Shown one piece after another: positions 11,000-45,412 of a DNA stretch of 64,000 bases (position 1 is its first letter; every line of letters begins with the position of its first letter). A program made the translations under genes and the position numbers. This stretch comes from Anaerolineae bacterium (GTDB lineage Bacteria > Chloroflexota > Anaerolineae > Anaerolineales > E44-bin32). Location of the stretch: assembly GCA_011174825.1 (NCBI GenBank), contig DUEZ01000077.1, positions 1-64,000 on the forward strand. Direction: 5' to 3'. A model generated the notes under the pieces. The model was not told the origin of the DNA. It saw only the letters and a list, made by a program, of their open reading frames with translations, and searched no databases.

Positions 11000-11354
11000 C
11001 GTCTTCTCTCCCTTTGATCAGCTCGTCCTGTTGGAGCTTGTCCCACAGAAAGTTGTTTATCCGCTGTTCAATCGAATCAGGATCTTATACATGAGTACAC
11101 TGAAAACTACCCTCGAGGAATAGGAAGGGGTATATGTGGGGGTACGGGCGCTGCCCGCACCCCCACATATACCGCTCCTCTTCTCGTGGTTGACCTGTTT
11201 TCAGTATAGTCGTCCATAACTTACCTCGGCAAAAAATTCTCTACTTCGGATTCCATCTACGGTCGAATCGGCGACTTCTCCCACTTGATACCAAGATCAG
11301 CAATCAAGTCTTGCTTTAGCCTTCTCATTTCACCAATTTCCTTCCAGCCACCTC
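11000..11354. other. Gap interrupted by a foldback element
   Basis: The only structure seen is the 119 bp foldback element at 11093-11211. It separates the two halves of the Mo-hydroxylase operon. I see no clear promoter or gene. Confidence 0.6.
11093..11211. mobile_element. 119 bp foldback (MITE-like) element, copy 1
   Basis: The outer ends are inverted repeats (ACACTGAAAAC at one side, GTTTTCAGT at the other). The centre is a long palindrome, TATATGTGGGGGTACGGGC against GCCCGCACCCCCACATATA. Flanking segments CTCGAGGAATAGGAAGG and CTCTTCTCGTGGTTGACC are shared with copies at 19691-19806 and 26552-26670. No transposase is encoded. Confidence 0.75.
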
Positions 11355-19033: not shown

Positions 19034-19660
19034 TTACTCCTCACTGGATGAGGCGAGTTTGTTAAAACGTCCCTCCTGAAAGGCTTCAAGGTCCTCGGGT
19101 ATATCAATATCTAAGCTGAAAGAAGGCAAGTTACAAATCTCAACTCGGACACCGGCAGCTCTTGCGTTGGAGAGGTGGCTAGAAAAACTATCGGGTCCGA
19201 AATCATATTCTATCAAACCTGGAGGGGACGATAAGAGTGCATTGGTCCCCTTTTGGTGACGATCGGGGGCGATCACCACAACAGGTGGATCCGTGGCCAT
19301 GGAGATGAGTTGGTCAATTCCTTCCTTCGTGAGCAAGGGTAGATCAGCGGGTAAAACCAACACACCTGATACGCCATACCCTCGCGCCAACAGGGTCGCT
19401 CGAACCAAGGCTTGATTCAACTGTGGTGAACCGCGCTCTGTGACCGTTCTCGCATTATGTTCGCGCGCCAAAGCCAGAGCGCGTAAATCTCTGCTGATCA
19501 CAAGGGTCCGTTCAAGGCTTGGTACTTGTGACAGCACATCAAGCGTGTGGATAAGCATTTGTTGACTCAGGCTAGCTCTCTCCTCTCGAGAGAGTACAGA
19601 GGACAACCTGGATTTCGCCCGATGGAGTGGTTTTACAGGTACAATCGCCCAGATTGTCAT
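19034..19660 (-). CDS. cofC: CofC/FbiD guanylyltransferase of F420 synthesis
   Basis: The 208-residue nucleotidyltransferase begins IWAIVPVKPLHRAKSRLSSVLS, has LVLPADLPLLTKEGID in the metal-binding region and DRHQKGTNALLSSPP, all characteristic of CofC. It activates 2-phospholactate or phosphoenolpyruvate with GTP to make the donor used by CofD. A foldback element lies between cofC and the upstream cofD. A purine-rich site (AAGGGTG) precedes the ATG. Confidence 0.9.
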   Translation of the reverse strand: MTIWAIVPVKPLHRAKSRLSSVLSREERASLSQQMLIHTLDVLSQVPSLERTLVISRDLRALALAREHNARTVTERGSPQLNQALVRATLLARGYGVSGVLVLPADLPLLTKEGIDQLISMATDPPVVVIAPDRHQKGTNALLSSPPGLIEYDFGPDSFSSHLSNARAAGVRVEICNLPSFSLDIDIPEDLEAFQEGRFNKLASSSEE

Positions 19661-19690
19661 CTTGCACCCTTTTTCATCATCATCTCCATT

Positions 19691-19806
19691 GACTCCACTG
19701 AAAAAAGGCCAACCAAGAGAAGAGAGCCGGTATACGTGAAGGTGCGGGGTACGCCCCCCACTTTTTCCCCTCCCTACTCCTCGAGGGTAGTTATCTCAGT
19801 GTACTC
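19691..19806. mobile_element. 116 bp foldback element, copy 3, overlapping the 3' end of cofD
   Basis: Its left end GACTCCACTGAAAAAAGG and right segment CTCGAGGGTAGTTATCTC align with the copies at 11093-11211 (reversed) and 26552-26670. The central palindrome is degraded (TATACGTGAAGGTGCGGGG / CCCCCCACTTTTTCC). Bases 19774-19806 are also the last eleven codons of cofD, stop included. Confidence 0.7.
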
Positions 19807-20733
19807 ATCCATTGCGAATTCTAGGACTTCTACTGCCAACCTCATCCGATCCTGCAGATTAGTCATTATCGTATTTGTAACACGCACTTGAATATCTAAG
19901 GCCTGGATATCAGGCGCAAGGTGTTCATCCTGCGTATCGATCACCACCCCTTTCAATATATGTTGATAATGCACAACCACGGTAAGCGCAGAGGGCTGGA
20001 TGCCTAATTCGGAATACATCTTAGCTGCTGGCCCTTTAATCGCCTTCCCACCCACGATCGGCGAAACACCAACAACTGGCTTCTCAACGACTGCGTCCCG
20101 AATTCCCTTCACAGCTAAGATAGGATCTAAGCTTACCCATGGATTTGAAGGACAAAGGACGACGAGATCTGCCGCCGAAAGTGCCTCCATCACACCTGGA
20201 GCCGGGGAGGCCGTTTCAACACCGGCAAAATGAAACCCCTTCACATGTGGTTCACAACGGCGAGCGACAAAGTAATCTTGGAAAGCCAACTCCCCGTCAT
20301 ACGTGTCCACAATCGTTCGTACAGGATGATCCGACATGGGAAGAAGATGAACCGATACACCAAGCGCCTGGCAGACATGCATCGTGATCTCGCTGAGCGA
20401 CTGACCTTCTTTTAAGCGCCGTGTTCGTTCATGATGCAACGCGAGGTCACGATCTCCTAGTTGAAACCAAGTTGGGCCCCCAAACCCTTCGAGTGTCTCA
20501 AGGAAATCCCATGTCTCATCCACTCGCCCCCATCCCGTTTGAGGGTTGGCCAACCCCGCCAGGGTGTAGACCAAGGTGTCCAAATCGGGACAGATGGTGA
20601 GACCAAGGTGTTCGAAATCGTCCCCCGTGTTTGCAATCACGGTTAATTGGCCCTTTGGCAATATCTCAGCCAACCCGCTGACTAACTTAGATCCACCGAC
20701 ACCGCCGGCGAGCGCGACGACATTTAGCGCCAT
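19774..20733 (-). CDS. cofD: CofD/FbiA, (dehydro)F420-0 synthase
   Basis: This 319-residue transferase joins the phospholactyl or phosphoenolpyruvyl group to the deazaflavin Fo. It starts VVALAGGVGGSKLVSGLAEI, the family's N-terminal glycine loop. It also has NTGDDFEHLGLTICPDLDT, ALSAADLVVLCPSNPWVSLDP and VSPIVGGKAIKGPAAK. It overlaps the upstream nitroreductase gene by ten bases. The last ten residues (EYTEITTLEE) and the stop come from a dispersed foldback element, so the original C-terminus was probably replaced after insertion. Confidence 0.93.
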   Translation of the reverse strand: MALNVVALAGGVGGSKLVSGLAEILPKGQLTVIANTGDDFEHLGLTICPDLDTLVYTLAGLANPQTGWGRVDETWDFLETLEGFGGPTWFQLGDRDLALHHERTRRLKEGQSLSEITMHVCQALGVSVHLLPMSDHPVRTIVDTYDGELAFQDYFVARRCEPHVKGFHFAGVETASPAPGVMEALSAADLVVLCPSNPWVSLDPILAVKGIRDAVVEKPVVGVSPIVGGKAIKGPAAKMYSELGIQPSALTVVVHYQHILKGVVIDTQDEHLAPDIQALDIQVRVTNTIMTNLQDRMRLAVEVLEFAMDEYTEITTLEE

Positions 20734-45318: not shown

Positions 45319-45412
45319 CTGGTCTTTGATGCATAATGATCCCACGTATATTCAAATTACTTCTATATGAAACCTCTTCTCGCAGTTGACGGTTTTTTCG
45401 TGGAGTCAGCCA

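Follow-up and report, generated by a model that had tools for sequence, protein, structure and literature searches.

Introduction

Small mobile repeats such as BOX, QMITE and RU-1 are already known to provide genes with their ends, and the family described here adds to them. Rickettsia palindromic elements are inserted in frame within ORFs without ending them. The present element differs from these in that it brings stops and the ORFs terminate inside it.

The pneumococcal BOX repeats encode the stop codon at the extreme 3′ end of 36 genes, with no strong evidence of polypeptide truncation, and ISSpn2 has been proposed as their mobiliser (PMC3049150). Like BOX, the present element is a small non-autonomous repeat that supplies gene ends. 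The two differ in that BOX is built of A/B/C modules and has another host and mobiliser, and in that the replacement of native residues is evident here from an empty site.

The Coxiella QMITE1 and QMITE2 overlap the 3′ ends of functional genes, and QMITE2 gives EnhC 33 C-terminal residues in one strain (PMC5896051). The enterobacterial RU-1/ERIC, a 127-bp repeat, adds C-terminal residues beyond the conserved domain, for example in the amidase ECA3499 (PMC2759123). Compared by description, QMITE1/QMITE2 share with our family that they are MITEs at gene 3′ ends, and RU-1 that it extends the C-terminus past the conserved domain, whereas both have other hosts. In the literature we found no paper on this MITE family or on Chloroflexota MITEs in gene ends.

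Here, we examined a window, the whole stretch of 64,000 nucleotides at the start of contig DUEZ01000077.1, from a genome of the order Anaerolineales. This genome is a fragmented draft of 3.85 Mb in 102 contigs, 92% complete with 6% estimated contamination. It was compared with relatives in a search of 61 genomes and a second, shallower search of 395 other genomes of the class. The closest relative compared is CP070708.1 (Anaerolineaceae bacterium bin52, also G004), whose CofD is 87% identical over residues 1-309; G001 belongs to the same genus and G014 to the same family.

With high confidence, we assign a segment at the cofD end to a palindromic, non-autonomous MITE family of this Chloroflexota lineage, of which it is one copy; an IS1182-family transposase most likely moved it in trans. 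The copy was inserted in the last cofD codons with duplication of ATGGA, and acts as a ready-made gene end.

The insertion at the end of cofD

The features of the locus and the other copies in the window are as follows, cofD and cofC being read on the minus strand.

20733-19774, minus: cofD, 2-phospho-L-lactate transferase, 319 aa (TIGR01819, 8.2e-95, residues 5-304; PF01933)
19812-19808, minus: target-site duplication ATGGA, cofD side
19807-19690, minus: MITE copy in the 3′ end of cofD, 118 bp (TGA...TCA)
19806-19774, minus: element-derived cofD end, EYTEITTLEE and the TAG stop
19689-19685, minus: target-site duplication ATGGA, cofC side
19689-19657, minus: displaced original cofD end (ATGGAGATGATGATGAAAAAGGGTGCAAGATGA, MEMMMKKGAR and stop), its TGA overlapping the cofC start
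19660-19034, minus: cofC, 2-phospho-L-lactate guanylyltransferase (TIGR03552, 9e-50), with the ATG start at 19658-19660
11092-11211, plus: second window copy of the MITE, intergenic, with a strong hairpin
26671-26551, minus: third window copy, intergenic, with the perfect 5-bp duplication TTATC
45371-45408, plus: solo right-end MITE fragment (profile positions 86-123, E 1.5e-4)

CofD scores 317.2 bits against TIGR01819, above the curated cut-off of 257.45, and hence is a member of that family. Its product as read now ends in LEFAMDEYTEITTLEE and the stop. An earlier note on this DNA had derived the last ten residues and the stop from an element with two other copies near 11093 and 26552. Both readings hold, as EYTEITTLEE and TAG lie wholly inside the 118-bp copy and the other two copies are real. 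A 2-base indel that the note had seen against copy 1 is real as well, but the deletion is in copy 1, and the cofD copy has the family's usual length there. The Asp codon before EYTE (19807-19809) is a hybrid of the element's T and the duplicated GA.

The cofD copy shares 78% identity with copy 1 and 85% with the family consensus. Its hairpin has decayed, with 39 of 51 pairs kept and a DNA fold z of -1.07, compared with -9.0 and -6.6 for the other two window copies.

Empty site and native CofD end

The flanks were rejoined with one ATGGA before comparison with the relatives. Removal of the element and the other ATGGA gives a 317-codon cofD that ends in LEFAMEMMMKKGAR with its TGA overlapping the cofC ATG. 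CP070708.1 has the same cofD-cofC junction without the element, 12 bp shorter, and its cofD end, LEFGTEMMAR, overlaps cofC too.

The ends read LEFAM-E-MMMKKGAR in the rejoined sequence, LEFGT-E-MMAR in CP070708.1 and LEFAM-D-EYTEITTLEE here, so that they part at the residue before EYTE, where the earlier note had placed the divergence. The cofD genes of G002 and G001 have other endings, likewise without the element. The note had further named EYTEITTLEE-like ends in other CofD proteins as counter-evidence. EYTE, ECTE, TTLE and TLEE are all absent from the last 40 residues in the 107 other CofD genes with a complete end, several of these loci being one gene present in two collections.

As read from the DNA, nine native residues (EMMMKKGAR) were lost and eleven (D and EYTEITTLEE) gained, and the insertion has set cofD and cofC 113 bp apart. 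The empty junction in CP070708.1 and the lack of the motif in all 107 CofD tails indicate that the window's lineage most likely acquired the insertion once it had diverged from CP070708.1.

The MITE family

The copies have the marks of a MITE: a length of 114-124 bp (short is below about 500 bp) without a transposase gene, the terminal inverted repeats TGAGTGCACTGAAAA and TGACTCCACTGAAAA, target-site duplications of 4-5 bp, and dispersed multiple copies with empty sites. The family consensus is TGAGTGCACTGAAAAAACTACCCTCGAGGAGTAGGGAGGGGTATATGTGGGGGTGCGGGCTGCGCCCGCACCCCCACATATACCGGTCCTCTTCTCGCGGTTGACCTTTTTTCAGTGGAGTCA, which as RNA forms a single long hairpin.

BLAST of the own genome gave about 40 copies, and the 15-bp end pattern had 173 matches against 19 for the reversed control. 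In a profile search of selected stretches, full-length copies numbered at least 62 in the own genome, and 132 in five genomes of the genus together. Of 53 copies, 18 are flanked by perfect direct repeats of 4 or 5 bp, while 1.0 is expected with shuffled flanks (at most 5 in 500 shuffles), and the flanks of the copies are mutually unrelated. The many copies, variable flanks, target duplications and empty site in a relative all bear out the earlier suggestion of a small mobile element without a transposase.

Among the 132 copies, 158 doubly compensated cells keep the pairing, against a mean of 54 and a maximum of 67 in shuffles that ignore kinship among the copies. This pattern indicates that the hairpin is maintained by compensatory changes across copies.

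The element was found in 11 of the 61 genomes of the relatives search, which comprise every one of the five genus members and some genomes from the family and the order, and in none of the 395 other genomes of the class in the shallower one. Mean identity to the consensus is 90% for the G001 copies and 83% for those of the own genome.

Solo element ends of 40-45 bp abut unrelated gene sequence, many of them in G003 (L181-L185, L192 and L193) and one in the window (45371-45408); either deletion at the palindrome or an assembly artefact may have given such ends. Other MITE subfamilies of about 120 bp and about 265-280 bp, with the same 15-bp ends and different interiors, occur in the genus, family and order (L282, L291, L295, L298, L296, L188 and L190).

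Candidate mobiliser

The own genome, at 92% completeness, yielded no transposase of the DDE_Tnp_1, rve, IS1380 or IS1182 type, and the mobiliser proposed below thus comes from relatives. An IS1380-type DDE transposase (PF13701) is absent in ten genomes, rve matches come without a matching pair of ends, and the single ends of about 40 bp in G003 and G012 gave no autonomous element.

G014 carries an 1838-bp insertion sequence with the ends TGAGTCCGCTGAAATAA and TGAGTCCCCTGAAAAAAGG, the duplication TGTA and a 576-aa ORF with PF13751, PF01609 and PF05598. In G019, G055 and G024, homologues lie between TGACTYYACTGCAA-type ends, and the duplications TGATG and ATAA were read from the flanks of the first two. 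For the G014 element, the putative mobiliser L309, NF033551 (IS1182) is the best NCBIfam model at 133.9 bits, below its cut-off of 270, while the Pfam models DDE_Tnp_1_6, DDE_Tnp_1 and DUF772 are above theirs. IS1182-like is therefore the safe wording for it.

The MITE and the relatives' IS1182-family elements (1.8 kb; transposase of NF033551/PF13751/PF05598 type) have nearly the same ends of about 15 bp and the same 4-5-bp duplications. The insertion sequences end in TGAGTCCCCTGAAAAAAGG or TGACTCCACTGCAAAAA with duplications TGTA, TGATG and ATAA, and the MITE right end, TGACTCCACTGAAAAAAGG, matches these closely, although the agreement is imperfect and spans only about 15-20 bp. L309/L316, L317, L318 and L319 are flanked by ends that match at 12-14 of 15 bp. 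The insertion sequence carries the 576-aa transposase, whereas the MITE has only the ends and a palindromic middle. From these shared ends and duplications, the relatives' IS1182-family insertion sequences are likely the mobiliser of the MITE.

Decayed or partial IS1182-family copies occur in G001, G026, G045 and others. Two transposase remnants lie in G001 (C87:11567-13365, L332; C96:10383-10589, L333), whose MITE copies are the closest to the consensus.

Gene ends and copy placement

The cofD case is not unique, as at least nine other genes in the own genome are ended likewise. Of the 53 copies that were examined first, 10 have a real gene end within them or at their tip. The genes are dnaE, a histidine kinase, a GH57 branching enzyme, an MFS transporter, a response-regulator cyclase, a glycosyltransferase, cofD, tatD, a CYTH protein and a HAD hydrolase. 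All ten have known domains that finish before the tail. Five have a common tail read in one frame (consensus ECTEKTTLEE and stop), four stop at the element tip, and the MFS gene enters the element by three codons.

Where relatives lack the element, their orthologues either have a different end or stop at the same codon. Both the own genome and CP070708.1 have the tatD, glycosyltransferase and cyclase insertions. The tatD end is WNHEYTEKTTFEE in CP070708.1 and WNHECTENNLEE here, and WNHENENSHIL in an element-free relative. At GH57 and dnaE, the gene overlaps the next one by ATGA in the relatives; here the TGA of the element gives the gene its stop back, and a start is rebuilt from the duplicated target.

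On reconstructed empty sites, 63 of 86 copies fall between genes (15% under the null), 10 within the final 40 bp of an ORF (3%) and 6 in mid-gene positions (74%). This placement is what purifying selection predicts.

Alternatively, the element might prefer gene ends or stop/start overlaps (xATGA) as its target rather than being purged elsewhere, which we consider improbable. As such a preference predicts, its position at L016 and L194 coincides exactly with an ATGA overlap present in relatives. The mostly intergenic copies and the depletion in gene interiors fit purifying selection instead, and the cleaner test of orientation between co-directional genes gave no significant bias (19:10, p = 0.14).

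That test used the plain strands of the neighbouring genes. A tight criterion had given 14:0 for the sense orientation in the own genome, but it is biased because antisense frames stay open longer, and we do not claim an orientation bias. Old copies (own genome) and young ones (G001) likewise showed no significant difference (Fisher p 0.17-0.44). An antisense terminator was also considered and dropped, as the folding energies differ just modestly (-2.85 and -0.64 kcal/mol).

At L016, L005 (with L242 in G004), L194 and L344, the right tip GGAGTCA and a 4-bp duplication put GGAG 6 nt before a rebuilt downstream start, and the left tip closes the upstream gene. The downstream genes at those loci are glgA-like, polyprenyl-synthase-like and pfkA-like, named by eye. 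By a speculative and rather unlikely extension, the MITE would be compatible with gene junctions: the upstream gene would be closed by the left tip (TGA, or TAG after ten codons), and the right tip with a 4-5-bp duplication would set a GGAG resembling a Shine-Dalgarno sequence about 6 nt ahead of the rebuilt start. Insertion in overlapping operon genes would then do little harm and the family would persist by capping genes.

Consequences for CofD and cofC

The CofD profile match stops at residue 304 and the solved structure 3c3d aligns to residue 306. The predicted structure has a mean pLDDT of 91, with residues 313-319 below 50 and thus disordered. As the tail is past both the profile and the 3c3d alignment and has low pLDDT, it is probably inert. 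That the element is now part of cofD, as the earlier note held, is correct insofar as the tail is in the ORF, which is probably a neutral change rather than a recruitment. To call the cofactor essential goes beyond the evidence, since F420 need not be essential.

It is very improbable that the tail was recruited, with the element residues or the cofD-cofC hairpin selected for CofD stability, mRNA processing or the cofD/cofC ratio. Five genes do share the tail frame, it has persisted in tatD and the glycosyltransferase since the split from CP070708.1, and the compensated cells of the family hairpin (158 against 54) speak for selection. At cofD, however, the tail is outside the domain and disordered in the model, the hairpin of this very copy has decayed, and the relatives manage without the tail.

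In 63 of the 107 relatives, cofD ends in ATGA, GTGA or TTGA, compatible with a cofC overlap. Without the stop/start overlap, translation of cofC may be less tightly coupled to that of cofD; cofC retains AAAAAGGGTGCAAG before its ATG. The displaced cofD end (19657-19689) is itself a 10-codon ORF, MEMMMKKGAR, with the duplicated ATG as its start and a stop that overlaps the cofC start; a role as coupled leader of cofC is conceivable.

Discussion

An immobile conserved RNA or DNA motif, such as a terminator or attenuator, that overlaps the cofD end by chance would explain the strong palindrome and its many compensatory changes, but the target duplications and the closest relative's empty site refute it. 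It is further opposed by the unrelated flanks, the absence from 50 of the 61 genomes and from the 395 others searched less deeply, and the lack of an Rfam match for the element (the one Rfam match, 6S RNA, is unrelated), so we give it hardly any credence.

In the favoured course of a MITE insertion, an IS1182-family transposase would have moved the MITE in trans, and the MITE entered the last cofD codons with ATGGA duplicated. In the frame entering from cofD, the left end codes for about ten residues and then TAG, a ready-made gene end. The old stop/start overlap was displaced, with cofC keeping its own start and upstream bases. Such insertions would survive at gene ends, as interiors are purged and the last few codons tolerate change.

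In summary, the empty site, the target duplication and the orthologous shared insertions make a clean case of non-autonomous mobile DNA that rewrites C-termini and separates overlapping genes in an uncultured Chloroflexota lineage. The MITE family is tied to a plausible mobiliser, an IS1182-type insertion sequence. Moreover, the insertions in the ten genes can be assigned to the time before or after divergence from a relative, so one can ask how freely bacterial C-termini are replaceable.
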